From contig AP031352.1 of NCBI GenBank assembly GCA_037833965.1, positions 14,984,501 through 15,048,500 on the forward strand: DNA of 64,000 bases, read 5' to 3'. The number at the start of each line of letters is the position of its first letter. Position 1 is the stretch's first letter. Made by a program: the position numbers and the translations under genes. The DNA is from Marchantia polymorpha subsp. ruderalis. Taxonomy: Eukaryota; Streptophyta; Marchantiopsida; Marchantiales; Marchantiaceae. The notes under the pieces are model-generated. The model was not told the DNA's origin. It saw nothing but the letters and a program-made list of their open reading frames with translations, and made no database searches. Shown here in pieces: positions 6,357 to 63,855 of this stretch.

Positions 6357-6365
6357 GGATTGCTA
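6357..6365 (-). promoter_or_regulatory. In-frame UAG CAA UCC between ORF1 and ORF2 (A1)
   Basis: The only barrier between ORF1 and ORF2 is this amber codon, because both are in the same frame. The six following bases fit the tobamovirus read-through pattern CARYYA except at the last position. The identical nine bases occur at all ten junctions in the window. Leaky termination is inferred. Confidence 0.65.
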
Positions 6366-13934: not shown

Positions 13935-14690
13935 CTATGTTGACGACACCCTCCTCCTCTGAGTAACGATTGCTCTCCCATCGTGTAAATAAGCAACAAA
14001 ACCCGATTCTTGAGCCTCTTTTACCTTCGCAAGCTCCTTTCTCCTAACTTCCACTTGTACAGGAGTCAGATCAGGATCCAACCATATTCTACGTCCCTTT
14101 AACATAGCCTTATTAGCCAAGGCAACATCACGTTGAGTTTGATTGACAAACTTCACTATAATACCACGAGGTTGAGCTCCCTTGTTTCCAATACGAAAAG
14201 CTTGAGCCAATTCCGCATTGGAAACCTGAAGTGTTTCATCCAAAAACTTGGTGACAACACTCTTGACATCTTCATTCTCTATTTCAGGTAAACATGAAAT
14301 TCTCACATTCTTCCTACGTGCAAGCTGGTTGGACTTTTCAATCTCTTGTTCTTGACAAAAAGAGATTTGAGCAGCCTTTGTAGCTTCAGCGTAGGATTTG
14401 ATCTTCAAATCTAAGCTTTCGACCACCTCATGCAATCTAGGACTATCCGCACTTGTCATCTGAGAGCATACCTTCCCTTGGATGTCATCCACAGATTTAG
14501 ATACATCCCACATCACACCCACACTATCCTTGAACACCTTCTCCACGTTCTTCTGTGATCCCTTCAACTCTCGAATTTGATTATGTGCGAGAGTTAAAGC
14601 AGCCTGTTGCATCTTGAATTCATGTCGAAGTTCCTTCAACTCTTCCAAAATTGTTTGCAGAGGCTGAAAAATATCGTCTTGAGAAGCCAT
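13935..14690 (-). CDS. LINE ORF1 (A2)
   Basis: All 251 codons are open with the same coiled coil, RRM-like and C-terminal parts as A1. It differs by a few residues (PLQTILEEL at the N-terminus, ISCLPE for ISGLPE, AFRIG for AYRIG). The Gly-to-Cys change lies in a residue constant in the other copies. It ends in the UAG before CAAUCC. Confidence 0.88.
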   Translation of the reverse strand: MASQDDIFQPLQTILEELKELRHEFKMQQAALTLAHNQIRELKGSQKNVEKVFKDSVGVMWDVSKSVDDIQGKVCSQMTSADSPRLHEVVESLDLKIKSYAEATKAAQISFCQEQEIEKSNQLARRKNVRISCLPEIENEDVKSVVTKFLDETLQVSNAELAQAFRIGNKGAQPRGIIVKFVNQTQRDVALANKAMLKGRRIWLDPDLTPVQVEVRRKELAKVKEAQESGFVAYLHDGRAIVTQRRRVSST

Positions 14691-14769
14691 GTCGTATCAA
14701 CTTCCGTATCAACCGAAACACTCTAAATTCTAGGTCGAAACACCAAAAAATATCGTAACTTCTCACTCA

Positions 14770-15659: not shown

Positions 15660-16744
15660 GTGAACTTCGGCGTCCCAACTCCAAAATGCGTGAAATTTTG
15701 CAGGCTGGAGCGCGCTACCCAACTCCACGCCCCTGCAAAGTTTCAGCTTCCGTGGACACTCAGACACGAAGAAACGATCTCTGCAAGAAACGATCTCGAC
15801 CTAAACACTCGAAAACTCCAACTCGAAACTTGAGAAATCCGTGAACTTCGGCGTCCCAACTCCAAAATGCGTGAAATTTTGCAAGCTGGAGCGCGCTATC
15901 CAACTCCACGCACCTGCAAATTTTCAGCTTCCGTGGACACTCGGACGCGAAGAAACGATCTCTGCAAGAAATGATCTCGACCCCAACACTCGAAAACTCC
16001 AACTCGAAACTTGAGAAATCCGTGAACTTCGGCGTCCCAACTCCAAAATGCGTGTAATTTTGCAGGCTGGAGCGCGCTACCCAACTCCACGCCCCTGCAA
16101 ATTTTCAGCTTCCGTGGACACTCAGACGCGAAGAAACAATCTCTTTAAGAAACGATCTCGACCCCAACACTCGAAAACTCCAACTCGAAACTTGAGAAAT
16201 CCGTGAACTTCGGCGTCCCAACTCCAAAATGCGTGAAATTTTGCAGGCTGGAGCGCGCTACCCAACTCCACGCCCCTGCAAATTTTCAGCTTCCGTGGAC
16301 ACTCAGACGCGAAGAAACGATCTCTTTAAGAAACGATCTCGACCCCAACACTCGAAAACTCCAACTCGAAACTTGAGAAATCCGTGAACTTCGGCGTCCC
16401 AACTCCAAAATGCGTGAAATTTTGCAGGCTGGAGCGCGCTACCCAACTCCACGCCCCTGCAAATTTTCAGCTTCCGTGGACACTCAGACACGAAGAAACG
16501 ATCTCTGCAAGAAACGATCTCGACCCCAACACTCGAAAACTCCAACTCGAAACTTGAGAAATCCGTGAACTTCGGCGTCCCAACTCCAAAATGCGTGAAA
16601 TTTTGCAGGCTGGAGCGCGCTACCCAACTCCACGCCCCTGCAAATTTTCAGCTTCCGTGGACACTCAAACGCGAAGAAACGATCTCTGCAAGAAACGATC
16701 TCGACCCCAACACTCGAAAACTCCAACTCGAAACTTGAGAAAAA
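15660..16744 (-). repeat. 5' UTR monomers M2 of A2
   Basis: Six units start at 15660, 15841, 16022, 16203, 16384 and 16565, each exactly 181 bp apart. M2 is richer in GC than M1 and contains a 14-bp imperfect inverted repeat (CCTGCAAAATTTCA and its complement) about 30 bp apart. Short open frames across each unit lack ATG and shift between units, so I do not call them genes. Confidence 0.9.
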
Positions 16745-18084: not shown

Positions 18085-18121
18085 TCTCTTGGATTGCTAG
18101 GTTGATGATTGTCTCCTCCTC

Positions 18122-20158: not shown

Positions 20159-21126
20159 GTTAAGTTCAATGACCAAACTTAACGTGATACAGCTTTAGCC
20201 AACAAAGCTGTACTCAAAGGACGTAGGATTTGGTTAGATCCCGATCTCACACCTCTACAAGTAGAGGCAAGGAGAAAGGAGCTTGCAAAAGTCAAAGAAG
20301 CTCAAGATGCTGGATTTTTTGCTTATCTTCGTGATGGACAAGCAATTGTCACTCAAAGGAAGAGACAATCATCCACATAGCAATCCAAGAGCTTGAGGGT
20401 GTTAATGTGGAATATTAGAGGTCTTTCTACAACCAAGTATGTGAGTGCTAATCCGATTTGGAAGATGGCGGACATCATCAACATTGTGGAGACGTGGGAA
20501 CATGAGAGCAACACTATTGGAGAGATACCAGGGTTTACTTTGGTGGGATCCACTTGGAATCAGAGAAATCAACGAGCTAAAAGGGGCTATGGCGGTATTG
20601 CTACTTTCATCAGATCTCAATTTCTACCTTTGATACATTTAGAAGGTCAGGATATTGGAGGTCAATATCATTGGCTTCGTCTTGGTTTGGTTGGAGGATC
20701 TTATAGTTATTTGGCTGTTTGTTACTTTGCACCATTGTCCATGCCTATCTACTCCACACGCACTTGCAATCGGAGTCAACCATTCCATCGACTTATAGGA
20801 GATGTTCTCAATTATCAAAGCAAAGGTGAAGTTTTTCTGGTTGGAGATTTCAATGCTCGAATAGGTTGTGCACAATTTACTCAAGTTGGTGATCTCTTGA
20901 GTTCTCCCTCCTTTGAAGAACTTGAAGATAGTATGTGGTGTAGAAAGTCTTCTGATATTTGTACAAATCCTTTGACAGAACACTTTCTAACCTTTGGAGC
21001 CACATGTAATTTGAAAGTTCCTCAACGGTATCTCTCTCTTTCCCAACTCCCTTTCCAATACGTGCTTTTCTCCTACAGGTGTTAGCACCATTGATTATCT
21101 TCTATCCTCAGTCACTCATAGCTCTT

Positions 21127-25621: not shown

Positions 25622-27748
25622 CAATCCAAGAGCTTGAGGGTGTTAATGTGGAATATTAGAGGTCTTTCTACAACCAAGTATGTGAGTGCTAATCCGATTT
25701 GGAAGATGGCGGACATCATCAACATTGTGGAGACGTGGGAACATGAGAGCAACACTATTGGAGAGATACCAGGGTTTACTTTGGTGGGATCCACTTGGAA
25801 TCAGAGAAGTCAACGAGCTGGAAGAGGCTATGGCGGTATTGCTACTTTCATCAGATCTCAATTTCTACCTTTGATACATTTAGAAGGTCAGGATATTGGA
25901 GGTCAATATCATTGGCTTCGTCTTGGTTTGGTTGGAGGATCTTATAGTTATTTGGCTGTTTGTTACTTTGCACCATTGTCCATGCCTATCTACTCCACAC
26001 GCACTTGCAATCGGAGTCAACCATTCCATCGACTTATAGGAGATGTTCTCAATTATCAAAGCAAAGGTGAAGTTTTTCTGGTTGGAGATTTCAATGCTCG
26101 AATAGGTTGTGCACAATTTACTCAAGTTGGTGATCTCTTGAGTTCTCCCTCCTTTGAAGAACTTGAAGATAGTATGTGGTGTAGAAAGTCTTCTGATATT
26201 TGTACAAATCCTTTGACAGAACACTTTCTAACCTTTGGAGCCACATGTAATTTGAAAGTTCTCAACGGTATCTCTCTCTTTCCCAACTCCCTTTCCAATA
26301 CGTGCTTTTCTCCTACAGGTGTTAGCACCATTGATTATCTTCTATCTTCAGCCACTCATAGCTCTTTTATTTCGAAATTTGATATTCTAGAACCTCTGCC
26401 AGAGTCAGATCATGCACCTCTCTTATTTACTCTCTTGTTATCAAAAACAATCCCTCTCTCTCCATGCCATTCTGTTTTAGCTTCTCCCAAGTTTCGTTTA
26501 GATCCTAGTAAGAAAGAGTTGTACATGTTACATTTTCAAAACCTTTTGACTCACACTTCATGGAGCCTTGATCCACATACAGCGAGTGGGCAATTAATAG
26601 AGTTGCTCAAAGACACTGCTTCTAAGTTCTTTTTGCGGCACAAGGATCGAAGAGCTAGGAGGCTTCCTTGCAATGGATGGTTTGACTTGGATTGTAAGCA
26701 AGCGAGGATGAGATCAGTTGACAAGTCTTTGGATTTCCAAAGTCGGCTTACCTTGACAAGGCTTTACAAAGACTTGGTGAAGTCTAAAAAAAGAGCTTTT
26801 TTGAGGACGAAGCAGGAATCCTTGACAAAGGAGTTGATGGAGAATCCCAAATCCTTTTGGAGACGGTTAGCTGTAAGGTCTTCAAAGCCTACTCTTGATC
26901 CCAAGAGTTTGATTGACTTTGCTGAAAAGCTTTATTTCTTTCCCAACGCTGCATCAATGCCTTGTTGTGAAGGAACATCAGGCTTATTTTCTGAATCAGA
27001 GGTGATGACTCAAGTTAGAAAATTAGCAAATGGTAAATCGGAGGATTTGGATGGTCTCTCTATTGAACTTTTGAAGTGGGGAGGAGATCTTATTGGACCG
27101 AGACTCACCAAAGCGTTAGAGAATGCAGCTATGTATGGTTTTCCTTCAGCTTGGTCATTACGGAAGATTGTGCCTATTCACAAGTCAGGAAGGAAGGACT
27201 TGGTGACAAACTATCGCACAATCATGGTGGGTAGTGTTTTTGCCAAGTTGTTTGGCAAATTGGTGGAGTCAAAGTTGAGCACATGGACTGAATCTCATCG
27301 AAAGAGAGCGCGGTTTCAAGCAGGCTTTCGCCCCACATACAACACCATTGACCATATCTTGGCTTTGCGTGTTTTATGGGAGAAATCGAAGGGCAATGGC
27401 AAAGCTTTGTTTTGCGCCTTCATTGATTTTAAGAAAGCTTTTGACACCGTACCTCGTGAGCTATTATGGGAAAGGCTGCAAGTCATTGGAGTACCATCAG
27501 ATCTTCTAGCAGCTGTGGCCACGCTTTACCAATCTGTTCGAGCCAAGATCAACACTTCTCAAACTAAAGAGGTTCTGAGTACCATTGGAGTGATTCAAGG
27601 TTGTCCTCTCTCTCCTACTCTATTTGGAGTTTTTATAGGTGATATCGAAGAGTGGTTGGAGGCATGTGATAGTGAAGGTGTCAAGCTTGGAAACTTTGTT
27701 ATCAAAGCTCTCTTGGTAAATGGTAAATGGTAAATGGTAAATAGATCA

Positions 27749-27834: not shown

Positions 27835-30800
27835 CTAGCTAGTGCCCAAAGCACTAGAACGGTAACTAATAATATCTCTAATGTAACAACCTAAATCATA
27901 AGGCTCGAGTTGAAGCAGAGAAAAGAAATTCTCGACATCAACTTTATGCGCCACTCGAATCTCTATATATCTAGTACAAGTAATAAACACATGCTCTTCA
28001 TCCTCAACATTTCTCCCATCACATAGCCTACAAATCCGTTCACTCCTATCAATATTCAACCAACGTCCTTCCTCAATTCCAAGCCTATGAGATCCTGTTC
28101 TATGCCTCGCAATAATATGACGTAAAGATGTAGCAATCTCTGCAACAAGGTACCCTTGCTCACAATAAATAAGCATAGGATTCACATGAAGTTGATAAAA
28201 CTGCATTTTAGTGCCTCCTCTCCTCCAAATGATGTTGAGAAACTCCTCCTTAATACGCTCGCGAAGGGCCATAGGTTGCAGATCCCAATCCAATTCCGTC
28301 ACATTCCACCTCAAAGACCAAGTCATCACATCTGCAAACCATCCCTTGGAACGTGTGGCACGCAAAGCATGAAGAGGAAGTCGAGAAGCATCAAGAGATC
28401 TCACCCTTCTAATATAAGTGATGGTCAAGTAGAGAGCTTCAGCCTCAAGAGGTAGACAACCGGTTTCCGCAAGAAGAATAGCATAAGGAGTTTGGTTCCT
28501 TACACCTAACTCTTCTTGTAAGAAGATCTTTTGCACCCTCTCCACACGCTCCCAACTTGTCTTCTTACTGCCAGGACCCCACACTTGTGTCCCATATAGA
28601 ACCACCGGCAACACTAAACTCCTAAATAAAAATTTCCTAAGACTCCAAGATACTAGATGGGCTCTTCTACATCGATTTAACAATGAATATAGAGCTTTGT
28701 AACCAGCTTCTACTCTCTTTTGTACACAAAGTGCCCAACTATAATTCTGAGAAAAATCAATGCCTAAATATTTGTAACTCTTCACTTGTTCCAATTCTAG
28801 TCCCTTGTAAAAGAAAGAGAACTTGGATCTAGTGCCCACAAGAATGATCTTTGATTTTTCCAGATTGACCTCCATCTGATTTCGAGTACAAAAGCTAGCC
28901 AAAGTATCAAGGTGTTTCTGTAAACTAATTGCATCACGTGCTAGTAATATGATATCATCTGCGTACAAAAGAGCTTTGATCACAAAGTCTCCAAGTTTGA
29001 CTCCTTCACTCTCACAATCATCCAACCACCTTTCTATATCATCTATGAATATTCCGAATAGAGTAGGAGAGAGAGGACAACCTTGAATAACTCCAATGGT
29101 GCTCGAGATCTCTTGAGGCTGAGAGGCATTAATCTTAGCTCGAACTGAAGTGTATAAAGTGGCCACAGCTCCGAGTAGATTAGCCGGTACTCCAATGTCT
29201 TGTAGTCTTTCCCATAAAAGCTTTCGAGGAACAGTATCAAAAGCTTTCTTCAAATCGATGAAGGCACAAAATAAAGCTTTCCCATTGCCCTTGGATTTCT
29301 CCCATAAAACACGTAAGGCCAAAATATGGTCAATAGTGTTGTATGTAGGACGAAAACCGGCTTGGGCCTTTGCTCTCTTCTGAAAATCCTCTGTCCATGT
29401 GCTCAACTTCGATTCTACCAACTTCCCAAACAACTTGGCAAAAACACTACCAACCATGATGGTGCGATAGTTTGTCACCACGTTCTTCCTTCCTGATTTA
29501 TGAATAGGAACAATCTTCCGCATGGACCAAGTTGATGGAAAACCGTGAACCATAGCATCTTCCAAAAGCTTAGTGAGAACCGGTCCAATACAATCTCCTC
29601 CCCACTTGATAAGTTCAATGGACAAGCCATCTAAATCCTCACATTTGCCATTTGCTAATTTTCGGAGAATAGTCATCACCTCTCCTTCCGAAAATAATCC
29701 AGGTGTTGCTTCGCAATATGGCATAGATGTGGCTTCTGGAAAGAAATAGAGCTTTTCGGCAAAAGCTACCAAAGACTCGGAATCAAGAGAAGGTTTTGAC
29801 GATGGTGTAGCTAATCGTCTCCAAAAGGACTTGGGATCCTTCATCAGGTCCTTTGTCAAGGATTCTTGCTTTCGTCTTAAGAAAGCTCGTTTCTTAGACT
29901 TCACCAAGTCTTTGTATATCCTTGTCAAAAGAAGCCGACTTTGAATATCCAAAGACCTATCAACAGACCTTGCCCTTGCTAGCTTGCATTCGGAGTCAAA
30001 CCATCCATTGCAAGGTAGCCCCTTAGCAATCCTAGTACTATGCCTCAAAAAGAACTTCGATGCAGAAGTTTTGAGCAATTCTATGAGCTGTAAACTAGCG
30101 GTATGCGAATCTGGACTCCATATGGTGTGAGTCAAAAGATCTTGTAGATGTTCTGCATAAAGGTCTCTTTTACAAGGATCTAAGCGAAACTTGGGAGAAG
30201 CTAAAAGAGATTGGCAAGGTGAAGTAGAGATTGATTTTGACATTGAAAGTGTGAACAAAAGAGGTGCATGATCTGATTCAGGTTGAGGATCCAAAACATC
30301 AAAATTGGAGATCAGAGAGGTACTAACCAAGGAAGACAAGAGAAAATCTATTGTGCTAGCACCGGTAGGGGAAAAACAAGTATTGGACTGAGAGTTGGGA
30401 AAGCGAGAGGTTCCATTGAGAACCTTCAAGTTACAAGTGGCTCCAAATGTCAAAAAGTGCTCTGTCAAAGAGTTTGTGGAAGGATCAAAAGAGGTTCTAG
30501 ACCACAAACTATCGTAAATTTCTTCAAACATAGAAGAAGCCAAGGGATCACTAAATTGAGTAAATTGAGCACAACGTATACGAGCATTGAAATCTCCAGC
30601 AAGAAAGACATCCCCTTTACTTTGGAATCTAAGAACATCTTCAATAAGCCGATGGAATGGTTCACTTCGGTTGCAAAAGCGTGTTGAGTAGATACCCATG
30701 GACAATGGTGCAAAATAACAAATTGCCAAATAGCAATAAGATCCTCCAACCACCCCGAGACGTAGCCAATGATACTGTCCACCAACATCTTGAGCTTCTA

Positions 30801-31041
30801 GATGTATGAGAGGTAGAAGATGAGACCTGATGAAAGTAGCAATACCTCCTTGACCCCTTCCCGCATGTTGTCTTCTTTGGTTCCATGTCGACCCCACCAA
30901 GGTAAACCCTTCCAACTCAGCAATAGTATTGCTTTCATGTTCCCAAGTCTCCACAATGTTGATGACGTCAGCCATCTTCCAAATCGGAGCAGCACTCACA
31001 TACTTTGTTGTTGAAAGTCCTCGGATATTCCACACCAACAC
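27835..31041 (-). CDS. LINE ORF2 (A3): endonuclease-reverse transcriptase
   Basis: All 1068 codons are open with the same catalytic residues and spacing as A1. I noticed one residue difference from A1 (MALRERI here, MTLRERI there). The first codon in the open frame after the UAG is 31059. GTG again replaces the ATG found in B and C, and the next ATG (codon 23) lies past the WNIRG strand that carries the catalytic Asn. The stop is followed by the 3' UTR shared with subfamily B. Confidence 0.93.
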   Translation of the reverse strand: MLVWNIRGLSTTKYVSAAPIWKMADVINIVETWEHESNTIAELEGFTLVGSTWNQRRQHAGRGQGGIATFIRSHLLPLIHLEAQDVGGQYHWLRLGVVGGSYCYLAICYFAPLSMGIYSTRFCNRSEPFHRLIEDVLRFQSKGDVFLAGDFNARIRCAQFTQFSDPLASSMFEEIYDSLWSRTSFDPSTNSLTEHFLTFGATCNLKVLNGTSRFPNSQSNTCFSPTGASTIDFLLSSLVSTSLISNFDVLDPQPESDHAPLLFTLSMSKSISTSPCQSLLASPKFRLDPCKRDLYAEHLQDLLTHTIWSPDSHTASLQLIELLKTSASKFFLRHSTRIAKGLPCNGWFDSECKLARARSVDRSLDIQSRLLLTRIYKDLVKSKKRAFLRRKQESLTKDLMKDPKSFWRRLATPSSKPSLDSESLVAFAEKLYFFPEATSMPYCEATPGLFSEGEVMTILRKLANGKCEDLDGLSIELIKWGGDCIGPVLTKLLEDAMVHGFPSTWSMRKIVPIHKSGRKNVVTNYRTIMVGSVFAKLFGKLVESKLSTWTEDFQKRAKAQAGFRPTYNTIDHILALRVLWEKSKGNGKALFCAFIDLKKAFDTVPRKLLWERLQDIGVPANLLGAVATLYTSVRAKINASQPQEISSTIGVIQGCPLSPTLFGIFIDDIERWLDDCESEGVKLGDFVIKALLYADDIILLARDAISLQKHLDTLASFCTRNQMEVNLEKSKIILVGTRSKFSFFYKGLELEQVKSYKYLGIDFSQNYSWALCVQKRVEAGYKALYSLLNRCRRAHLVSWSLRKFLFRSLVLPVVLYGTQVWGPGSKKTSWERVERVQKIFLQEELGVRNQTPYAILLAETGCLPLEAEALYLTITYIRRVRSLDASRLPLHALRATRSKGWFADVMTWSLRWNVTELDWDLQPMALRERIKEEFLNIIWRRGGTKMQFYQLHVNPMLIYCEQGYLVAEIATSLRHIIARHRTGSHRLGIEEGRWLNIDRSERICRLCDGRNVEDEEHVFITCTRYIEIRVAHKVDVENFFSLLQLEPYDLGCYIRDIISYRSSALGTS

Positions 31042-31053
31042 CCTTATCTTCTC

Positions 31054-31062
31054 GGATTGCTA
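31054..31062 (-). promoter_or_regulatory. In-frame UAG CAA UCC between ORF1 and ORF2 (A3)
   Basis: This is the sole stop between two long ORFs in one frame in the best-preserved copy. Read-through would give a fusion of roughly 1325 residues. Confidence 0.65.
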
Positions 31063-31815: not shown

Positions 31816-31894
31816 GTCGTATCAACTTCCGTATCAACCAAAACACTCTAAATTCTAGGTCAAAACACCAAAAAATATCGTAACTTCTCACTCA

Positions 31895-32783
31895 AGCGTC
31901 CATGCACCTTCAAACTTGATGAGCTTCTGCCGAATATCAATCCCCAAGTCCTCAAAAATTTTCAGCCTCAGATCTTGCTTTGTCGAAAAGATAAAAATGT
32001 CTGAACATTTTTGTGACCACCCGAACACTCGGGATAAAAAGTCGAAACTCAAAATGGTCTGTAACTTCTGACTCAAGCGTCCGTTCACCTTCAAACTTTT
32101 TATGCTACTGCCGAATATTGATCTCCAAGTCCCCAAAAATTTTCAGACTCAGATCATGCTTCGTCAAAAAGATAAAAATGTCTGAACATTTTTGTGACCA
32201 CGGAACACTCGAAACAAAAAGTCGAAACTCCAAATGGGCTGTAACTTCTGACTCAAGCGTCCGTTAACCTTCAAACTTTTTATGCTTCTGCCGAATATTG
32301 ATCTCCAAGTCCCCAAAAATTTTCAGCCTCAGATCATGCTTCGTCAAAAAGATAAAAATGTCTGAACATTTTTGTGACCACCCGAACACTCGAAACAAAA
32401 AGTCGAAACTCCAAATGGGCTGTAACTTCTGAATCAAGCGTCCGTTCACCTTCAAACTTTTTATGCTTCTGCCGAATATTGATCTCCAAGTCCCCAAAAA
32501 TTTTCAGCCTCAGATCATGCTTCGTCAAAAAGATAAAAATCTCTGAACATTTTTGTGACCACCCTACCACTCGAAACAAAAAGTCGAAACTCCAAATGGG
32601 CTATAACTTCTGAATCAAGCGTCCGTTCACCTTCAAACTTTTTATGCTACTGCCGAATATTGATCTCCAAGTCCCCAAAAATTTTCAGCCTCAGATCATG
32701 CTTCGTCAAAAAGATAAAAATGTCTGAACATTTTTGTGACCACGTGAAACACTCCCAATTGACACTCTTTGCTGAAGAAATTC
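31895..32783 (-). repeat. 5' UTR monomers M1 of A3
   Basis: Five units start at 31895, 32076, 32256, 32437 and 32618, with the same one-base short unit as A1. The final unit grades into M2 across CGTGAAACACTC. Confidence 0.9.
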
Positions 32784-34217
32784 GTGAACTTCGGTGTCGC
32801 AACTCCAAAATGCGTGAAATTTTGCAGGCTGGAGCGCGCTACCGAACTCCACGCCCCTGCAAATTTTCAATTTCCGTGGACACTCAGACACGAAGATACG
32901 ATCTCTGCAAGAAACGATCTCGACCCCAACACTCGAAAACTCCAACTCGAAACTTGAGAAATCCGTGAACTTAGGCGTCCCAACTCCAAAATGCGTGAAA
33001 TTTTGCAGGCTGGAGCGCACTACGGAACTCCACGCCCCTGCAAATTTTCAGCTTCCGTGGACACTCAGACGCGAAGATACGATCTCTGCAAGAAACGATC
33101 TCGACCCCAACACTCGAAAACTCCAACTCGAAACTTGAGAAATCCGTGAACTTCGGCGTCTCAACTCCAAAATGCGTGAAATTTTGCAGGCTGGAGCGCG
33201 CTACCGAACTCCACGCCCCTGCAAATTTTCAGCTTCCGTGGACACTCAGACGCGAAGATACGATCTCTGCAAGGAACGATCTCGACCCCAACACTCGAAA
33301 ACTCCAACTCGAAACTTGAGAAATCCGTGAACTTCGGCGTCCCAACTCCAAAATGCGTGAAATTTTGCAGGCTGGAGCGCGCTACCGAACTCCACGCCCC
33401 TGCAAATTTTCAGCTTCCGTGGACACTCAGACACGATCTCTGCAAGAAACGATCTCGACCCGAACACTCGAAAACTCCAACTCGAAACTTGAGAAATCCG
33501 TGAACTTCGGCGTCCCAACTCCAAAATGCGTGAAATTTTGCAGGCTGGAGCGCGCTACCGAACTCCACGTCCCTGCAAATTTTCAGCTTCCGTGGACACT
33601 CAGACGCGAAGATACGATCTCTGCAAGAAACGATCTCGACCCGAACACTCGAAAACTCCAACTCGAAACTTGAGAAATCCGTGAACTTCGGCGTCCCAAC
33701 TCCAAAATGCGTGAAATTTTGCAGGCTGGAGCGCGCTACCGAACTCCACGTCCCTGCAAATTTTCAGCTTCCGTGGACACTCAGACGCGAAGATACGATC
33801 TCTGCAAGAAACGATCTCGACCCCAACACTCGAAAACTCCAACTCGAAACTTGAGAAATCCGTGAACTTCGGCGTCCCAACTCCAAAATGCGTGAAATTT
33901 TGCAGGCTGGAGCGCGCTACCGAACTCCACGCCCCTGCAAATTTTCAGCTTCCGTGGACACTCAGACGCGAAGATACGATCTCTGCAAGAAACGATCTCG
34001 ACCCCAACACTCGAAAACTCCAACTCGAAACTTGAGAAATCCGTGAACTTCGGCGTCTCAACTCCAAAATGCGTGAAATTTTGCAGGCTGGAGCGCGCTA
34101 CCGAACTCCACGCCCCTGCAAATTTTCAGCTTCCGTGGACACTCAGACGCGAAGATACGATCTCTGCAAGAAACGATCTCGACCCCAACACTCGAAAACT
34201 CCAACTCGAAACTTGAG
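32784..34217 (-). repeat. 5' UTR monomers M2 of A3
   Basis: Eight units start at 32784, 32965, 33146, 33327, 33500, 33681, 33862 and 34043. The spacing is 181 bp except 173 bp for the fourth, which lacks eight bases after GACAC. The copies differ by only a few bases (for example CACGCCCC or CACGTCCC), which suggests recent unit amplification. Confidence 0.92.

Positions 34218-34258
<41 letters not shown>
34218..34258. repeat. 41-base A homopolymer at the 5' edge of A3
   Basis: Forty-one A on the plus strand, so T on the element strand, separate the last M2 unit from the interrupted C ORF2. Other A copies have three to five A at this point. It is on the wrong end and strand to be a poly(A) tail of A3. 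Confidence 0.85.
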
Positions 34259-40073: not shown

Positions 40074-40811
40074 ATGATGGATTCTGAAAACAAACTTCTC
40101 AATCTTGTGCAAACGGTTTTGGAGGAATTGAAAGTGCTACGCCAAGAATTCAGGGCACAAAATGTTGCTTTGGCTGCTGCAAAGAATGAAATCAGGGAGT
40201 TGAAGATTTCTCACAAAAGTTTTGAGAAGATGATGCTCCAAATCTCTGGATCTGTTGAGGACATTCAAGACAAGGTTGGTTCTCAAGCTTCTACTGTTAC
40301 TACTCCTGCTTTGCATGAAGTGGTTGAAACTCTTGAGGTGAAAATGAAGTCCTATGCTGAAGCTACCAAGTCTGCTCATATCTCTTTCTGTCAAGAGCAA
40401 GAGATTGAAAAGGCTAGTCAATTTGCTCGTATGAAGAATGTGAGGATTTCGGGTCTACCTGAATCTGAGAAGGAAGAGGTGAAGAGTGTGGTCACCAAGT
40501 TTTTGACTGAAACACTTGATGTTTCTAATCCGGATTTGGCTCATGCTTATCGTATTGGCAACAAAGGCACACAACCTCGTGCCATTATTGTTAAGTTTGT
40601 AGATCAAGCTCAACGTGATATGGCTTTAGCTAACAAGGCCATTCTCAAGGGACGGAGGATTTGGTTAGATCCAGATCTTACACCTCTTCAAGTTGAAGCA
40701 AGGAGGAAGGAGCTTGCAAAAGTCAAAGAAGCTCAAGATGCAGGTTTTGTAGCTTATCTACGTGATAGTCAAGCTATTATCACCAAGAGGAGGAGACAAT
40801 CATCAACCTAG
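40074..40811 (+). CDS. LINE ORF1 (B2)
   Basis: The 245-aa protein starts MMDSENKLLNLVQTVLEEL. It has a coiled coil to about residue 70, an RRM-like core (NVRISGLPESEKEEV) and a C-terminal domain (DPDLTPLQVEARRKEL). It is clearly homologous to A and C ORF1 but differs in the N-terminal heptads, the fastest-changing part of L1 ORF1 proteins. The start lies shortly after the last monomer. The stop is the UAG at 40809-40811. Confidence 0.9.
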   Translation: MMDSENKLLNLVQTVLEELKVLRQEFRAQNVALAAAKNEIRELKISHKSFEKMMLQISGSVEDIQDKVGSQASTVTTPALHEVVETLEVKMKSYAEATKSAHISFCQEQEIEKASQFARMKNVRISGLPESEKEEVKSVVTKFLTETLDVSNPDLAHAYRIGNKGTQPRAIIVKFVDQAQRDMALANKAILKGRRIWLDPDLTPLQVEARRKELAKVKEAQDAGFVAYLRDSQAIITKRRRQSST

Positions 40812-40817
40812 CAATCC
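40809..40817 (+). promoter_or_regulatory. In-frame UAG CAA UCC between ORF1 and ORF2 (B2)
   Basis: UAG is followed by eight sense codons (QSKRLRVL) and then the first ORF2 ATG in the same frame. These codons are similar in A and C at the protein level (QS, RVL), as expected if they are translated. Confidence 0.65.
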
Positions 40818-40823
40818 AAGAGA

Positions 40824-43661
40824 TTGAGGGTGTTGATGTGGAACATAAGAGGCCTATCTACAACTAAGTATGTGAGTGCACATCCGATTTGGAAGATGGC
40901 GGACATCCTCAACATTGTTGAGACTTGGGAGCATGAAAGTAATGTTATTGGAGAGATACAAGGGTTTACTCTGGTGGGATCTACTTGGAACCATAGAACT
41001 CGACGAGCAGGAAGAGGCTTTGGAGGCATTGCTACTTTCATCAGATCTGAACTTCTTCCTATGATACATTTGGAAAGCCAAGATATTGGGAAACAATATC
41101 ATTGGCTTCGTCTTGGATCGATTGGAGGATCTTACAGTTATTTGGCAGTTTGTTACTTTGCACCATTATCCATGCAGATCTACTCCACAAGCACTTGCAA
41201 TCGAAGTCAACCATTCCATCGGCTCATAGGAGATGTTTTCAAATATCAAGACAAAGGTGAAGTTTTTCTTGTTGGAGACTTCAATGCCCGCATACGTTCC
41301 GCTCAATTTACACAATTTGATAGTTCCTTGTCTTCTCACTCTTTTGAAGAAAGTAGAGATAGTTTGTGGTCTAGAGTCTCTTGTGATCCTTGTACAAATG
41401 ATTTGACTGAGCATTTCTTGACTTTTGGAGCCACTTGTAATCTGAAAGTTCTCAATGGTGTTTCTTTCTTTCCCAACTCTCACTCCAATACATGTTTTTC
41501 CTCTACTGGTGTTAGCACTATAGATTATCTTTTGTCCTCTACCACTAATAGTTCATTTATCTCAGCGTTTGATATTCTAGAGCCTCAACCAGAATCAGAT
41601 CATACACCTCTTTTATTTACTCTTTTGCTGCCAACGTCAATCCCTCTCCCTACATACTATGTTTCTACTTCCCCCAAGTTTTGTTTAGATGCTAGTAAAA
41701 AGCAACTTTATAGTGAACATTTCCAAGACCTCTTGACTTGTACAACTTGGAGCCTTGATCCACATACATCTAGTTTGCAACTAACAGAGTTGCTCCAAAA
41801 CTCTGCTTCTAAGTTCTTTTTGAGACATAAGACCAGGAGAGCTAGAGGTCTTCCTTGCAATGGATGGTTTGACTTTGATTGCAAGCAAGCGAGGGCGAGA
41901 TCACTTGATAAATCCTTGGATCTTCACAATCGGTTGATTATGACAAGACTTTACAAAGACTTGGTGAAGTCCAAGAAACGAGCATTTTTGAGGCAGAAGC
42001 AAGAGTGCTTGACAAAGGAGCTCTTGAAGAATCCCAAATCCTTTTGGAGGCGGTTGGCAGTACGATCTTCTAAACCTACTCTTGATCCCAAGTCTTTGAT
42101 TTCTTTTGCTGAAAAGCTTTATTTTTTTCCCAATGTTGCATCTATGCCACATTGTGAAGGAAATCCAGGCTTATTTTCAGAAGTTGAAGTGATGACTCAA
42201 CTAAGACAATTGGCAAATGGTAAATGTGAGGATTTGGATGGGCTTTCCATTGAACTTCTCAAGTGGGGAGGAGATGCTATTGGGCCTATGCTTACGAAAG
42301 CGTTAGAGGATGCTGCTATTCATGGCTTTACTTCATCTTGGTCTCTACGGAAGATTGTTCCTATTCACAAATCTGGGAGCAAGGCCTTGGTGACAAACTA
42401 TCGCACTATCATGGTGGGTAGTATTTTTGCCAAGTTATTTGGCAAATTGGTGGAGTCAAAGTTGAGCACATGGGCTGAATCTTGTCAGAAGAGAGCGCGG
42501 TTCCAAGCTGGTTTTCGTCCTACATTCAACACTATAGACCATATCTTGGTTTTACGTGTTCTATGGGAGAAATCCAAGGGTAATGGAAAAGCTTTGTTTT
42601 GTGCCTTCATTGATTTCAAGAAAGCTTTTGACACAGTACCTCGTGAGCTTTTATGGCAAAGATTGCAAGCCATTGGAGTACCATCAGATCTCTTGGCAGC
42701 GGTGGCTGCATTATACCACTCAGTTCGGGCCAAGATCAACACTTCTCAAACCGAAGAGATTATCAGCACCATTGGAGTCATTCAAGGTTGTCCTCTCTCT
42801 CCCACTCTCTTTGGAGTTTTCATAGATGATATAGAAAGGTGGTTGGAGGATTGTGATAGCGAAGGTGTTAAACTTGGAGGTTTTGTCATCAAAGCTCTTT
42901 TGTATGCAGATGATGTCATATTACTAGCACGTGATGCCACTAGTTTACAGAAACACCTCGACACTTTGGCTAGCTTTTGTACTCAAAATCAGATGGAAGT
43001 CAATTTGGAGAAGTCCAAAGTCATTCTTGTGGGCACTAGATCCAAGCTCTCTTTCTGTTACAAAGGATTAGAGTTGGAACAAGTGAAAAGTTACAAATAT
43101 TTGGGCATTGATTTCTCATCTGATTATAGTTGGGCACTTTGTGTGCAAAAGAGGGTAGAAGCTGGTTTCAAAGCTCTATATTCATTGCTAAATAGATGTA
43201 GAGGAGCTCATCTAGTGTCTTGGAGTCTTAGGAAATTCTTATTCAGGAGCTTAGTGTTTCCCGTTATCTTATATGGAACACAAGTGTGGGGTCCTGGTTG
43301 TAAGAAGACAGGTTGGCAGCGTTTGGAGAGGGTGCAAAAGATCTTCTTACAAGAAGAATTGGGTGTGAGGACCCAAACTTCTTATGCAATTCTTCTTGCG
43401 GAAACAGGTTGTCTACCTCTTGAGGCTGAAGCTCTCTTTTTGACTATCACTTACGTCAAAAGAGTGAGATCTCTTGGTGCTTCTCGACTTCCTCTTGAAG
43501 CTCTGCATGCCACACGTCCCAAGAGTTGGTTTGCAGATGTGGTGACTTGGTCTTTGAGGTGGAATGTGACGGAACTTGATTGGAATTTGCAACCTATTGC
43601 CCTACGCGAGCGTATTAGGGAGGAATTTCTCAGCATTATGTGGAGCACACGAGGCACCAAG
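40824..43661 (+). pseudogene. LINE ORF2 (B2), cut by C2 insertion
   Basis: It is open from the UAG through the endonuclease (ETWEHE, GDFNAR, SDH), the RT (FIDFKKAFD, GVIQGCPLSP, YADDVILLA) and the post-RT region to GTK, where C2 cuts off about 120 residues with the zinc-knuckle-like motif. Translation would continue 22 codons into C2. The ATG is at 40836. It would probably lack full retrotransposition activity. Confidence 0.88.
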
Positions 43662-43719
43662 GTAATGGTAATGGTAATAGATCAAGCCCGGGGGACCCAA
43701 AGGGTCAAAAGGCGCACTC

Positions 43720-44203
43720 AAGTCTAGAGGTGAAGATGAAATCTTATGCAGAAGCCACCAAGTCTGCTCATATCTCTTTCTGTCAAGAGCAAGAGATTGA
43801 AAAGACTAATCAATTTGCTCGTAGAAAGAATGTAAGAATTTCTGGTCTACCTGAATCTGAGAAGGAAGAGGTGAAGAGTGTTGTCACCAAGTTTTTAGCT
43901 GAAACACTTGATGTTCCTAATGCGGATGTGGCTCAAGCTTTTCGCATTGGAACCATAGGAACTCAACCTCGAGCCATCATAGTTAAGTTCAATGACCAAA
44001 CTCAACGTGATACAGCTTTAGCCAACAAAGCTGTACTCAAAGGACGTAGGATTTGGTTAGATCCCGATCTCACACCTCTACAAGTAGAGGCAAGGAGAAA
44101 GGAGCTTGCAAAAGTCAAAGAAGCTCAAGATGCTGGATTTTTTGCTTATCTTCGTGATGGACAAGCAATTGTCACTCAAACGAAGAGACAATCATCCACA
44201 TAG
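43720..44203 (+). pseudogene. LINE ORF1 (C2), N-terminally truncated
   Basis: The same open stretch as at 25139, with one change near the end (QTKRQSST for QRKRQSST). The coiled coil and start codon are missing. The UAG at 44201-44203 is in frame with ORF2. Confidence 0.85.
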
Positions 44204-48248: not shown

Positions 48249-48373
48249 TCTGTTTTAGCTTCTCCCAAGTTTCGTTTAGATCCTAGTAAGAAAGAGTTGT
48301 ACATGTTACATTTTCAAAACCTTTTGACTCACACTTCATGGAGCCTTGATCCACATACAGCGAGTGGGCAATT

Positions 48374-48618
48374 GGTAAATGGTAAATGGTAAATGGTAAA
48401 TAGATCAAGCCCGTGGGACCCAAAGGGTCAAAAGGCTAAAAAACACAATACAAACAATCCAACTCCAAACTAGGAGAGAACCAAAAGAACCCCCTAGCTA
48501 GTGCCCAAAGCACTAGAACGGTAACTAATAATATCTCTAATGTAACAACCTAAATCATAAGGCTCGAGTTGAAGCAGAGTTAATAGTTAGTAGCTCGAGT
48601 TAAGCAGAGTTTAAGCAG
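48374..48618 (-). mobile_element. LINE 3' fragment with patchwork filler
   Basis: Tail, hairpin, 3' UTR and about 30 ORF2 codons lie at 48374-48579. Then 39 bases of filler (48580-48618) are built from pieces of the neighbourhood (CTCGAGTT, AAGCAGAG, TTAATAG). AATT flanks the whole (48370-48373 and 48619-48622). Confidence 0.75.
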
Positions 48619-54023: not shown

Positions 54024-54761
54024 CTAGGTTGATGATTGTCTCCTCCTCTTGGTGATAATAGCTTGACTATCACGTAGATAAGCTACAAAACCTGCATCTT
54101 GAGCTTCTTTGACTTTTGCAAGCTCCTTCCTCCTTGCTTCAACTTGAAGAGGTGTAAGATCTGAATCTAACCAAATCCTCCGTCCCTTGAGAATGGCCTT
54201 GTTAGCTAAAGCCATATCACGTTGAGCTTGATCTACAAACTTAACAATAATGGCACGAGGTTGTGTGCCTTTGTTGCCAATACGATAAGCATGAGCCAAA
54301 TCCGGATTAGAAACATCAAGTGTTTCAGTCAAAAACTTGGTGACCACACTCTTCACCTCTTCCTTCTCAGATTCAGGTAGACCCGAAATCCTCACATTCT
54401 TCATACGAGCAAATTGACTAGCCTTTTCAATCTCTTGCTCTTGACAGAAAGAGATATGAGCAGACTTGGTAGCTTCAGCATAGGACTTCATTTTCACCTC
54501 AAGAGTTTCAACCACTTCATGCAAAGCAGGAGTAGTAACAGTAGAAGCTTGAGAACCAACCTTGTCTTGAATGTCCTCAACAGATCCAGAGATTTGGAGC
54601 ATCATCTTCTCAAAACTTTTGTGAGAAATCTTCAACTCCCTGATTTCATTCTTTGCAGCAGCCAAAGCAACATTTTGTGCCTTGAATTCTTGGCGTAGCA
54701 CTTTCAATTCCTCCAAAACCGTTTGCACAAGATTGAGAAGTTTGTTTTCAGAATCCATCAT
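54024..54761 (-). CDS. LINE ORF1 (B3)
   Basis: The 245 codons are open and nearly identical to B2 ORF1 (EFKAQN for EFRAQN, LDSDLTP for LDPDLTP). The stop is UAG followed by CAATCC, in frame with ORF2. Confidence 0.9.
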   Translation of the reverse strand: MMDSENKLLNLVQTVLEELKVLRQEFKAQNVALAAAKNEIRELKISHKSFEKMMLQISGSVEDIQDKVGSQASTVTTPALHEVVETLEVKMKSYAEATKSAHISFCQEQEIEKASQFARMKNVRISGLPESEKEEVKSVVTKFLTETLDVSNPDLAHAYRIGNKGTQPRAIIVKFVDQAQRDMALANKAILKGRRIWLDSDLTPLQVEARRKELAKVKEAQDAGFVAYLRDSQAIITKRRRQSST

Positions 54762-59285: not shown

Positions 59286-60041
59286 CTATGTTGACGACAC
59301 CCTCCTCCTCTGAGTAACGATTGCTCTCCCATCGTGTAAATAAGCAACAAAACCCGATTCTTGAGCCTCTTTTACCTTCGCAAGCTCCTTTCTCCTAACT
59401 TCCACTTGTAGAGGAGTCAGATCAGGATCCAACCATATTCTACGTCCCTTTAACATAGCCTTATTAGCCAAGGCAACATCACGTTGAGTTTGATTGACAA
59501 ACTTCACTATAATACCACGAGGTTGAGCTCCCTTGTTTCCAATACGAAAAGCTTGAGCCAATTCCGCATTGGAAACCTGAAGTGTTTCATCCAAAAACTT
59601 GGTGACAACACTCTTGACATCTTCATTCTCTATTTCAGGTAAACCTGAAATTCTCACATTCTTCCTACGTGCAAGCTGGTTGGACTTTTCAATCTCTTGT
59701 TCTTGACAAAAAGAGATTTGAGCAGCCTTTGTAGCTTCAGCGTAGGATTTGATCTTCAAATCTAAGCTTTCGACCACCTCATGCAATCTAGGACTATCCG
59801 CACTTGTCATCTGAGAGCATACCTTCCCTTGGATGTCATCCACAGATTTAGATACATCCCACATCACACCCACACTATCCTTGAACACCTTCTCCACGTT
59901 CTTCTATGATCCCTTCAACTCTCGAATTTGATTATGTGCGAGAGTTAAAGCAGCCTGTTGCATCTTGAATTCATGTCGAAGTTCCTTCAATTCTTCAAAA
60001 ATTGTTTGCAGAAGCTGAAAAATATCGTCTTGAGAAGCCAT
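59286..60041 (-). pseudogene. LINE ORF1 (A4), one premature stop
   Basis: The 252-codon frame is collinear with A1. CAG in GSQKN has become TAG (59904-59906), within the coiled coil. The remainder is open to the UAG at 59286-59288 in frame with ORF2. Confidence 0.88.
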
Positions 60042-60275: not shown

Positions 60276-60983
60276 GCGTCCATGCACCTTCAAACTTGAT
60301 GAGCTTCTGCCGAATATCAATCCCCAAGTCCTCAAAAATTTTCAGCCTCAGATCATGTTTCGTCGAAAAGATAAAAATGTCTGAACATTTTTGTGACCAC
60401 CTGAACACTCGAGATAAAAAGTCGAAACTCAAAATGGTCTGTAACTTCTGACTCAAGCGTCCGTTCACCTTCAAACTTTTTATGCTACTGCCGAATATTG
60501 ATCTCCAAGTCCCTAAAAATTTTCAGCCTCAGTTCATGCTTCGTCAAAAAGATAAAAATGTCTGAACATTTTTGTGACCACCGGAACACTCGAAACAAAA
60601 AGTCGAAACTCCAAATGGGCAGTAACTTCTGACTGAAGCGTCCGTTGACCTTCAAACTTTTTATGCTACTGCCAAATATTGATCTCCAAGTCCCCAAAAA
60701 TGTTCAGTCTCAGATCATGCTTCGTCAAAAAGATAAAAATGTCTGAACATTTTTGTGACCACCGGAACACTCGAAACAAAAAGTCGAAACTCCAAATGGG
60801 CTGTAACTTCTGAATCAAGCGTCCGTTCACCTTCAAACTTTTTCTGCTACTGCCGAATATTATTCTCCAAGTCTTCAAAAATTTTCAGCCTCAGATCATA
60901 CTTCTTCAAAAAGATAAAAATGTCTGAACATTTTTGTGACCACGTGAAACACTCGCAATTGACACTCTTCGCTGAAGAAATTT
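60276..60983 (-). repeat. 5' UTR monomers M1 of A4
   Basis: Four units start at about 60275, 60456, 60637 and 60818, 181 bp apart, then run into M2. Confidence 0.88.
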
Positions 60984-62095
60984 GTGAACTTCGGCGTCCC
61001 AACTCCAAAATGCGTGAAATTTTGCGGGCTGGAGGGCGCTACCCAACTCCACGCCCCTGCAAATTTTCAGCTTCCGTGGACACTCAGACGCGAAGAAACA
61101 ATCTCTGCAAGAAACGATCTCGACCCCAACACTCGAAAACTCCAACTCGAAACTTGAGAAATCCGTGAACTTCGGCGTTCCAACTCCAAAATGCGTGAAA
61201 TTTTGCAGGATGGAGCGCGCTACCCAACTCCACGCCCCTGCAAATTTTCAGCTTCCGTGCACACTCAGACGCGAAGAAACGATCTCTGCAAGAAACGATC
61301 TCGACCCCAACACTCGAAAACTCTAACTCGAAACTTGAGAAATCCGTGAACTTCGGCGTCCCAACTCCAAAATGCGTGAAATTTTGCAGGCTTGAGCGCG
61401 CTACCCAACTCCACGCTCCTGCAATTTTTCAGCTTCCGTGGACACTCAGACGCGAAGAAACGATCTCTGCAAGAAACGATCTCGACCCCAACACTCGAAA
61501 ACTCTAACTCGAAACTTGAGAAATCCGTGAACTTCGGCGTCCCAACTCCAAAATGCGTGAAATTTTGCAAGCTGGAGCGCGCTACCCAACTCCACGCCCC
61601 TGCAAATTTTCAGCTTCCGTGGACACTCAGACGCGAAGAAACAATCTCTGCAAGAAACGATCTCGACCCCAACACTCGAAAACTCCAACTCGAAACTTGA
61701 GAAATCCGTGAACTTCGGCGTCCCAACTCCAAAATGCGTGAAATTTTGCAGGCTGGAGCGCGCTACCCAACTCCACGTTCCTGCAAATTTTCAGCTTCCG
61801 TGGACACTCAGACGCGAAGAAACGATCTCTGCAAGAAACGATCTCGACCCCAACACTCGAAAACTCTAACTCGAAACTTGAGAAATCCGTGAACTTCGGC
61901 GTCCCAACTCCAAAATGCGTGAAATTTTGCAGGCTGGAGCGCGCTACCCAACTCCACGCCCCTGCAAATTTTCAGCTTCCGTGGACACTCAGACGCGAAG
62001 AAACAATCTCTGCAAGAAACGATCTCGACCCCAACACTCGAAAACTCCAACTCAAAACTTGAGAAATCCGAGAACTTCGGCGTCCCAACTCCAAA
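60984..62095 (-). repeat. 5' UTR monomers M2 of A4
   Basis: Units start at 60984, 61165, 61346, 61527, 61708 and 61889, exactly 181 bp apart, with a partial unit at 62070. More unit-to-unit differences are seen than in A3, in line with an older copy. Confidence 0.9.
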
Positions 62096-63104
62096 AGGTG
62101 AAGTTTTTCTTGTTGGAGACTTCAATGCCCGCATACGTTCCGCTCAATTTACACAATTTGATAGTTCCTTGTCTTCTCATTCCTTTGAAGAAAGTAGAGA
62201 TAGTTTGTGGTCTAGAGTCTCTTGTGATCCTTGTACAAATGATTTGACTGAGCATTTCTTGACTTTTGGAGGCACTTGTAATCTGAAAGTTCTCAATGGT
62301 GTTTCTTTCTTTCCCAACTCTCACTCCAATACATGTTTTTCCTCTACTGGTGTTAGCACTATAGATTATCTTTTGTCCTCTGCCACTAATAGTTCATTTA
62401 TCTCAGCGTTTGATATTCTAGAGCCTCAACCAGAATCAGATCATACACCTCTTTTATTTACTCTTTTGTTGTCAACGTCAATCCCTCTCCCTACATGTCA
62501 CTATGTTTCTACTTCCCCCAAGTTTTGTTTAGATGCTAGTAAGAAGCAACTTTATAGTGAACATTTCCAAGACCTCTTGACTTGTACTACTTGGAGCCTT
62601 GATCCACATACATCTAGTTTGCAACTAACTGAGTTGCTCCAAAACTCTGCTTCTAAGTTCTTTTTGAGACACAACACCAGGAGAGCTAGAGGTCTTCCTT
62701 GCAATGGATGGTTTGACTTTGATTGCAAGCAAGCAAGGGCGAGATCACTTGATAAATCCTTGGATCTTCACAATCGGTTGATTATTAATCGGTTGATTAT
62801 CCATTACCATTACCATTACCATATGACAAGACTTTACAAAGACTTGGTGAGGTCCAAGAAACGAGCATTTTTGAGGCAGAAGCAAGAGTGCTTGACAAAG
62901 GAGCTCTTGGAGAATCCCAAATCCTTCTGGAGGCGGTTGGCAGTGCGATCTTCTAAACCTACTCTTGATCCCAAGTCTTTGATTTCTTTTGCTGAAAAGC
63001 TTTATTTTTTTCCCAATGTTGCATCTATGCCACATTGTGAAGGAAATCCAGGCTTATTTTCAGAAGTTGAAGTGATGACTCAACTCAGACAATTGGCAAA
63101 TGGT
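62095..63104 (+). pseudogene. LINE ORF2 (B) endonuclease-linker fragment
   Basis: It is open over about 310 codons with GDFNAR, PESDHTPL and LPCNGWFDFDCK. The 37-bp insertion at 62786-62822 plus the neighbouring sequence stays readable in the reading frame over this part (INRLIIHYHYHYH). There is no RT. Confidence 0.78.
62801..62822 (+). repeat. Solo C-type tail (ATTACC hexamers) in B ORF2
   Basis: Twenty-two bases of CCATTA hexamers are preceded by a 15-bp repeat of the flank (TAATCGGTTGATTAT). The hexamer unit points to subfamily C as the source. Confidence 0.75.
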
Positions 63105-63855
63105 AAATGGTAAATGGTAAATAGATCAAGCCCGTGGGATCCAAAGGGTCAAAAGGCTAAAAAACACAATACAAACAATCCAACTCCAAACTAGGAGAGA
63201 ACCAAAAGAACCCCCTAGCTAGTGCCCAAAGCACTAGAACGGTAACTAATCATATCTCTAATGTAACAACCTAAATCATAAGGCTCGAGTTGAAGCAGAG
63301 AAAAGAAATTCTCGACATCAACTTTATGCGCCACTCGAATCTCTACATACCTAGAACAAGTAAGAAATACATGCTCTTCATCCTCAACTTTTCTTCCATC
63401 ACATAGCCTACAAATACGTTCACTCCTATCAATGTTCAACCAACGCCCTTCTTCAATCCCAAGACTATGGGATCCAGTTCTATGTCTAGCAATAATATGA
63501 CGTAAAGAAGTAGATATCTCTGCAAGTAAGTATCCTTGCTCACAATAAACAAGCATAGGATTCACATGAAATTGATAAAACTGCATCTTGGTGCCTCGTC
63601 TGCTCCACATAATGCTGAGAAATTCCTCCTTAATACGCTCGCGTAGGGCAATAGGTTGCAAATTCCAATCGAGTTCCGTCACATTCCACCTCAAAGACCA
63701 AGTCACCACATCTGCAAACCAACTCTTGGGACGTGTGGCACGCAAAGCTTCAAGAGGAAGTCGAGAAGCATCAAGAGATCTCACTCTTTTGACGTAAGTG
63801 ATAGTCAAAAAGAGAGCTTCAGCCTCAAGAGGTAGACAACCTGTTTCCGCAAGAA
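63105..63855 (-). mobile_element. LINE subfamily B, 3' part
   Basis: Tail, hairpin (63129-63158, one mismatch in the inner stem), 3' UTR and ORF2 C-terminus are present. The tail is placed exactly where B ORF2 itself has AAATGGTAAATG, so the insertion point matches the tail sequence. It is interrupted at 63855 by a C element. Confidence 0.82.
63215..63855 (-). pseudogene. LINE ORF2 C-terminal fragment (B)
   Basis: About 213 codons are open from LAETGCLPLEAEALF to the stop, including RICRLCDGRKVEDEEH. The RT is not present in the window. Confidence 0.82.

Follow-up and report, generated by a model that had tools for sequence, protein, structure and literature searches.

The present work concerns a family of long interspersed nuclear elements (LINEs) of Marchantia polymorpha subsp. 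ruderalis, ten copies of which lie in a 64-kb stretch of contig C3 (C3:14984501-15048500, hereafter the window). In this family, which judging from its anatomy and from an earlier reading of the window (the sequence-only reading) is an L1-like LINE, the open reading frames ORF1 and ORF2 are in the same frame and are separated by a single UAG stop codon, an arrangement that is unusual for such elements. In one subfamily (A) and in one of the two copies of a more divergent subfamily (F), no in-frame AUG is present before the core of the ORF2 endonuclease, and in these copies ORF2 therefore needs either read-through of the UAG or initiation at a non-AUG codon. Judging from the sequences, read-through of the UAG is probably the best explanation of ORF2 expression. 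Programmed read-through had been proposed by the sequence-only reading and remains the best-supported mechanism, mainly on account of the missing AUG in A and in the F copy L095 (F95) rather than conservation of the hexanucleotide following the stop. The missing AUG in A and in one of two F copies is new, whereas the idea of read-through is already known for a group of Paramecium LINEs.

All ten junctions in the window consist of TAGCAATCC followed by AAGAG or GAGAAG, i.e. they all read TAG CAA TCC, with ORF1 and ORF2 in one frame, and past the UAG the ORF2 frame is open in each of them for 234-1074 codons. This confirms the earlier claim of ten UAG-CAAUCC junctions at which the ORF2 frame directly continues (the positions originally given for the six minus-strand junctions are those of the low end of the TAG). 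The copies belong to three subfamilies, viz. A (6365, 13937, 31062 and 59288, on the minus strand), B (20378, 25619 and 44201) and C (18099, 40809 and 54026), the letters A-F being assigned in the present analysis. Five of the ten copies have a complete ORF1, with 245 or more codons from ATG, and in the remaining five ORF1 is truncated, chimeric or interrupted (in 18099 it extends for 10 codons upstream and in 20378 for 65). However, as these junctions are from related copies, their likeness should be counted as one ancestral event per subfamily and not as ten. UAG was also described as the sole stop used; this holds in the window, but across the genome only nearly so, as four TAA copies and no TGA copy are found. 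At TAGs of the window other than the junctions, CARYY comes next in 15 of 1866 cases (0.8%), four of these 15 being one antisense site repeated across A copies. An antisense TAGCAATCC, followed by TAG, is present within ORF2 of A copies at window positions 5327, 12899, 30024 and 58249 (+), and these four sites represent a fortuitous match inherited among the A copies.

The first in-frame ATG after the UAG is at codon 29 in 26 of the 30 A copies fetched from the genome, a stop being encountered earlier in the other four, and it is likewise at codon 29 in F95. This ATG lies past the WNIRGL motif of the endonuclease, and the PF03372 match in an A copy begins at ORF2 residue 9. Further, W10 and N11 of ORF2 are common to a distant metagenomic relative, N11 being presumably the catalytic asparagine of such endonucleases. 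Because a protein starting at codon 29 would lose W10 and N11 together with the beginning of the endonuclease match, this codon is too late to serve as the start. Between -43 and +40 of the A junction, each ATG, whatever its frame, occurs in at most one of the 30 copies, and the ATG which is present at -44 in 29 of them is out of frame. In none of A, B, C and F does an ORF2 AUG overlap the ORF1 stop or lie next to it, as in stop-start termination-reinitiation. Reassignment of UAG in the genetic code was considered and rejected: in intact copies the ORF2 frame also ends in UAG, in a context different from that of the junction, and UAG is therefore a normal stop here.

In the whole assembly (241,466,482 bases, 9 contigs), TAGCAATCCRAGARNNT has 444 exact matches, and a pattern of TAG-CAR with the endonuclease motif 15-30 nt further on has 384, the reversed control giving none in either case. 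The first 100 listed of these 384 matches look like the present LINE family, and among them CAAUCC is replaced by CAAUUC in two, by CAAUCU in one and by CAACCC in one. The comparison of stop variants covers TAG, TAA and TGA; the TAA/TGA version of the pattern gave six matches versus three in its reversed control, and four of the six are TAA copies of the junction, none is a TGA copy, and those at C2:16711636 and C4:19963798 were judged to be unrelated to it. As query for the 30 A copies, and for 30 B copies, the 30 bases starting 9 nt after the start of the TAG were used, the stop itself being ignored, a choice which is biased towards copies with well-kept neighbouring sequence. Among these 60 copies the stop is UAG in 58, UAA in one and chimeric in one; 27 of the A copies have TAGCAATCC, one has TAGCAATTC, one has TAACAATCC and one is chimeric, and all 30 B copies have TAGCAATCC. 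The other 30 loci (25 C, 4 D and 1 E) were picked by the junction motif and are uninformative on its conservation, several of those on contig C1 being triplicates. A full ORF1 together with at least 500 open ORF2 codons is present in 26 of the 85 A, B and C copies (13 of the 30 A, 4 B and 9 C), and UAG is found in all 26, the 9 C copies among them being motif-picked. Frequent frame-shifted junctions, the occurrence of which the sequence-only reading had named as evidence against its proposal, were not seen: 82 of the 85 copies are gapless relative to a subfamily reference over 129 nt spanning the junction, a figure that applies to A and B copies picked by the 30 bases after the junction and to C copies picked by the junction itself. 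The A 30-mer has 123 matches, all but seven of those listed being exact. Among the 150 of 474 endonuclease candidates that were scored, 57 matches have the full 1074-codon frame (hand count), the profile start in 32 of them being as in the A copies; subfamily A looks young, abundant and intact. In the same 150 of 474, no fused ORF1-ORF2 frame (>1300 codons) is present, the longest frame of the family being of 1180 codons; the family was assigned here by position and profile start, and rows of 1356-1368 codons are those of a second LINE family. The rates of change at the stop and its neighbouring bases (0/270 in B, 3/120 in A) were not used, because of the picking by adjacent bases and because truncated copies inflate the rates outside.

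Both ORFs are under purifying selection between A, B and C. Based on one copy of each, the ratio of nonsynonymous to synonymous divergence (dN/dS) is 0.13-0.19 for ORF1 and 0.19-0.22 for the first part of ORF2, the synonymous divergence (dS) among these representatives being 0.61-1.27. The more divergent subfamily F (dS of 1.17-1.72 from A, B and C) is represented by L095 and L099, which came from gapped TAG-CAR searches; their junctions, TAG CAA CTC and TAG CAA ATC, are in frame in both copies, and the stop and the shared frame are retained across subfamilies. As the F copies are decayed, part of their divergence is neutral, and as they were found by a TAG-CAR query, they are no evidence that all subfamilies retain CAR.

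In a second LINE family of the same genome, ORF1 (zinc-knuckle-like by eye) and ORF2 are in different frames, and ATGA (CAATGACG) is present at the junction in three of four loci read. In L091 and L094 the ORF2 ATG leads openly into SWNVGGL, and in L093 a stop lies between the ATGA and SWNVGGL. The different-frame ATGA of this family, a small and mixed control, indicates that the same-frame UAG is not universal among the LINEs of this host.

With regard to its context, the junction has the UAG and the in-frame open extension of a type I read-through signal, and CAA is present at +1 to +3, in agreement with CAR, in all fetched A-F copies except one chimeric A copy, the C, D, E and F copies having been found by patterns requiring CAR. 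UAG-C-A-A is the start of the type I signal of plant viruses (PMC11166343), and in a mammalian reporter of CARYYA, read-through was far lower with UAA than with UAG or UGA (PMC4132726). CAAUCC does match CARYYA at five of six positions, as was pointed out in the sequence-only reading, and the chance of five or six matches given UAG is about 3% (from base composition, by hand). However, the argument from this hexanucleotide is weaker than claimed, as its last base is off, F differs, and its conservation is within chance.

A number of observations weigh against read-through and they are considered here together. YYA is not found at +4 to +6, these bases being UCC in A, B and C, with C instead of A as the sixth base, and CUC or AUC in F, in which UAG, frame and CAA occur together and the second codon is changed; in the mammalian reporter with UGA, each of the six CARYYA bases seemed to contribute (PMC4132726). 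The retention of both CAA and TCC by A, B and C is within chance (0.55 x 0.38 = ~0.21, from the family's own rates of 12/22 Gln and 17/45 Ser codons unchanged, both junction codons included), and the proposed comparison of the stop and the next six bases with neighbouring third positions thus comes out in the right direction without reaching significance. Marked synonymous constraint is not seen at the junction, where 10-codon blocks spanning the stop score -0.6 to 1.0 (those at codons 17-28 reach 2.86). No local RNA structure is conspicuous at the junction either, as the folding energies of three junctions of 131 nt do not exceed those of shuffled sequence (z of -0.48, 0.25 and -0.11), although this result is consistent with tobamovirus read-through, for which 25 nt around the stop suffice (PMC2754532). 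Further, codon 9 is ATG (with T at -3) in B and C, an ATG is present at codon 6 in F99 (L099), a copy otherwise decayed, and codons 6-7 read AGG GUG without change in A, B, C and F95, which a GUG start would require as well. Lastly, the decayed-looking L092 of the second LINE family, which is without ATGA, has no in-frame ATG between its last stop and the endonuclease motif.

Despite these points, read-through is the simplest explanation, since it accounts for two ORFs in one frame, for a UAG that has been retained and is followed by CAA, for an ORF2 without AUG and for the fact that no fused frames are seen. If it occurs, then most ribosomes would terminate at the UAG, with release of ORF1 protein, and a minority of them, aided by the 3' C-A-A, would insert an amino acid at the UAG and enter ORF2, giving a little ORF1-ORF2 fusion with a complete endonuclease. 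We infer the occurrence and the rate of read-through as well as the residue inserted, and the fusion, either whole or cleaved, would be the working ORF2 protein. A broader proposal, for which we consider the case to be evenly balanced, is that a land-plant L1-like LINE lineage has dropped its ORF2 start codon and lives on type I-like UAG read-through; its active protein would be a fusion made in a fixed small ratio, similar to the tobamovirus replicases and gammaretroviral Gag-Pol, and the codon-9 AUG of B and C would merely be a derived V-to-M change.

The main rival explanation is AUG-independent re-initiation by ribosomes that terminate at the UAG or arrive close to it, at a near-cognate codon just past the UAG, most plausibly the GUG of codon 7, which would produce free ORF2 protein and render the shared frame incidental; we regard it as possible, if doubtful. 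The GUG lies in the identical AGG GUG noted above, with A at -3, and for ORF2 of mammalian LINE-1 an unconventional form of termination-reinitiation has been put forward (PMC5972666). However, if this were the mechanism, then the open shared frame and the UAG-CAA would be coincidences, and the unchanged AGG GUG is no strong sign, its chance being ~0.34 x 0.44 by family rates. It also counts against this mechanism that non-AUG starts are inefficient in eukaryotes. If, on the other hand, ORF2 is translated by ordinary termination-reinitiation at the codon-9 AUG (RVL-M-WNIRGL), then A and F should be dead or trans-mobilised subfamilies, which appears improbable to us. This AUG is present in 30 of 30 B copies (picked by a motif containing it), and in 25 of 25 C, 4 of 4 D and 1 of 1 E copies (picked by a motif without it). 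However, the young, abundant and intact appearance of A, and the selection on its ORF2, do not suit a dead subfamily. Further, this AUG, besides having T at -3, sits inside the first strand of the endonuclease (predicted residues 7-12, in a low-confidence model with mean pLDDT 44.6 used solely for this strand), and the residue varies, codon 9 being ATA in the window C copy 18099. As A and F95 share GUG, the AUG of B and C would more simply be derived, by a V-to-M change.

Two other explanations are both very improbable. Splicing or template switching could strip the UAG from part of the mRNAs and give a fused message; nothing was found in favour of this, a donor-like GTGAGT being present in the conserved stretch just downstream of the junction, and an intron over the junction would remove conserved codons of the ORF1 C-terminal and endonuclease N-terminal parts. 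The least probable of all is that the two ORFs share a frame by chance through descent, without any expression signal, other copies supplying ORF2. Common descent does reduce the ten junctions to one event per subfamily, but the frames are selected between A, B and C, and no other arrangement is seen among copies of the family.

The proposed read-through of the LINE junction is similar to type I read-through of tobamoviruses in the UAG, the CAA, the in-frame ORF, the lack of structure and the (expected) excess of the upstream product (PMC11166343, PMC2754532). It differs in that the last base of the junction is C and not A, the second codon varies in F, read-through is deduced from sequence, and the element is a LINE and not a virus. 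Among LINEs, read-through of the ORF1 stop has already been suggested for group 3 of Paramecium (PMC5405496). However, these elements are of a ciliate clade, distinct from known clades according to that paper, and the excerpted passage contains no context motif or missing-AUG argument. In the excerpts from the open-licence literature this is the only such suggestion for a LINE, none being made in those of PMC5009743, PMC2861651 and PMC12233894, nor was a plant L1-like element with a same-frame UAG-CAA and no ORF2 AUG found in them. In SART1-type LINEs, ORF2 also comes directly after ORF1 and is coupled to ORF1 termination, but through a stop-start overlap with an AUG of its own, whereas the Marchantia LINE has a shared frame and, in A, no AUG (PMC5972666). 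The second LINE family of the genome, with its ATGA in three of four loci, belongs in those loci to the stop-start overlap type. Zorro3 of Candida albicans is likewise a two-ORF L1-like element, but it has an A-rich spacer between its ORFs, and a change of its first ORF2 ATG lowers retrotransposition to <5% (PMC1965478). Celine of poplar is a centromere-concentrated plant LINE with two ORFs that its authors suspect of a non-canonical strategy, but the ORFs overlap, ORF1 is DUF4283-type and of 1617 bp, and the tail is poly(A) (PMC11288735). In contrast, the Marchantia LINE has same-frame ORFs, a predicted coiled-coil/RRM-like ORF1 and a (TTTACCA)n tail. For SIRE1, a plant retrotransposon with long terminal repeats (LTRs), read-through has reportedly been suggested. 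For RIRE2, another plant LTR retrotransposon, suppression of a stop codon between two ORFs has been proposed (cited in PMC2754532). Such plant elements differ from the present family in being LTR elements, with gag-pol or env-like junctions.

The translation of ORF2 from the two-ORF message of a LINE has long been a question, and few cases have been worked out, viz. stop-start coupling, AUG-independent initiation and single fused ORFs. An ORF2 without a usable AUG provides a clean test case of ~60 nt, in a tractable plant, for read-through versus re-initiation. If read-through is true, then a leaky stop would set the ORF1:ORF2 ratio of a LINE, which would then respond to the termination factors of the host, and the element may work with a fused protein. 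As the copies form dense clusters which are possibly centromeres, expression of the LINE may also bear on centromere upkeep.

In its anatomy, an intact A copy has, in order on the minus strand, 181-bp repeats, ORF1, UAG, ORF2, a short 3' stretch and (TTTACCA)n. ORF2 of an A copy matches the PF03372 endonuclease (E 2.1e-10) and the PF00078 reverse transcriptase (E 2.1e-33), and that of a C copy matches the same two (E 4.2e-9 and 2.1e-33); the layout, an N-terminal APE-type endonuclease and a central reverse transcriptase, is that of an L1-like LINE. No useful Pfam match was found for ORF1, and neither ORF1 nor the ORF2 endonuclease has a match among PDB sequences. An AlphaFold model of A ORF1 from three sequences (mean pLDDT 62.7, pTM 0.32) has three long helices, a beta-alpha-beta-beta-alpha-beta unit, and a helix with a hairpin, and from this model a layout of coiled coil, RRM-like domain and C-terminal domain is predicted. 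The predicted layout presumably resembles that of the mammalian L1 ORF1 protein. A search for relatives elsewhere in a protein database gave one weak match among 2554 candidates (E 1.7e-5). The coordinates of the features in the window are listed below.

Table. Features of the LINE copies in the 64-kb window
Feature	Position	Strand	Basis
ORF1 of a C copy, 245 codons from ATG, ends in UAG	40074..40811	+	frame reading
Junction UAG CAA UCC of the same C copy (main finding)	40809..40817	+	sequence
ORF2 frame of the C copy, 971 codons; PF03372 and PF00078; first in-frame ATG is codon 9	40812..43727	+	
ORF1 of an intact A copy, 251 aa	31063..31815	-	
UAG junction of the A copy; CAAUCC next; 28 codons without in-frame AUG	31060..31062	-	
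ORF2 frame of the A copy, 1074 codons and stop UAG; start is QSEKIRVLVWNIRGL	27835..31059	-	
181-bp tandem repeats 5' of ORF1 in the A copy; putative 5' untranslated region	31880..34220	-	
(TTTACCA)n tail, 3' end of the A copy	27714..27742	-	
UAG junction of an intact A copy; ORF1 6366-7118, ORF2 frame 3138-6362	6363..6365	-	
UAG junction of an A copy; 3' part of ORF2 broken (873 codons)	13935..13937	-	
UAG junction of a decayed A copy	59286..59288	-	
UAG junction of a C copy; ORF1 frame of just 10 codons; codon 9 is ATA	18097..18099	-	
UAG junction of a C copy; complete ORF1, broken ORF2	54024..54026	-	
UAG junction of a B copy; broken ORF1	20378..20380	+	
UAG junction of a B copy; ORF1 155 codons from ATG, ORF2 frame 703 codons	25619..25621	+	
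UAG junction of a B copy; ORF2 frame 1072 codons	44201..44203	+	

The 181-bp tandem repeats, of one or two kinds, are present upstream of the A copies at 7183-7947, 14755-16742, 31880-34220 and 60276-62107, recalling the promoter monomers of mouse L1. The 7-bp unit TTTACCA forms arrays in the window at 27714-27742, 48373-48401, 63094-63122 and other sites. The first of these, the tail of an A copy, adjoins a B copy in the opposite orientation, which suggests that the copies insert into each other. Within the part compared between A, B and C, conservation of synonymous sites is strongest at ORF2 codons 168-192 (maximum 4.97; shuffle p of 0.0455 for the maximum); codons 168-195, which correspond to about 30475-30558 (-) in the 31062 copy, are a possible RNA element, judging from this conservation.

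Among the matches listed, most copies are in one dense cluster per contig, viz. C1 3.32-3.52 Mb, C2 14.17-14.39 Mb, C3 14.91-15.30 Mb, C4 19.86-20.15 Mb, C5 15.8-16.1 Mb, C6 12.73-12.93 Mb, C7 11.94-12.10 Mb, C8 12.84-13.03 Mb and C9 10.41-10.79 Mb, which is possibly the single cluster per contig expected of centromeres. The matches on C1 occur in three copies ~360 kb apart, which may be likened to a triplication reported on the Tak-2 U chromosome (PMC13078153). The second LINE family is found in rows near contig ends, with ORF2 frames of up to 1368 codons (C5:12474-23743, C6:2446-94416 and C7:28231120-28242833), and it is possibly subtelomeric or telomere-seeking.

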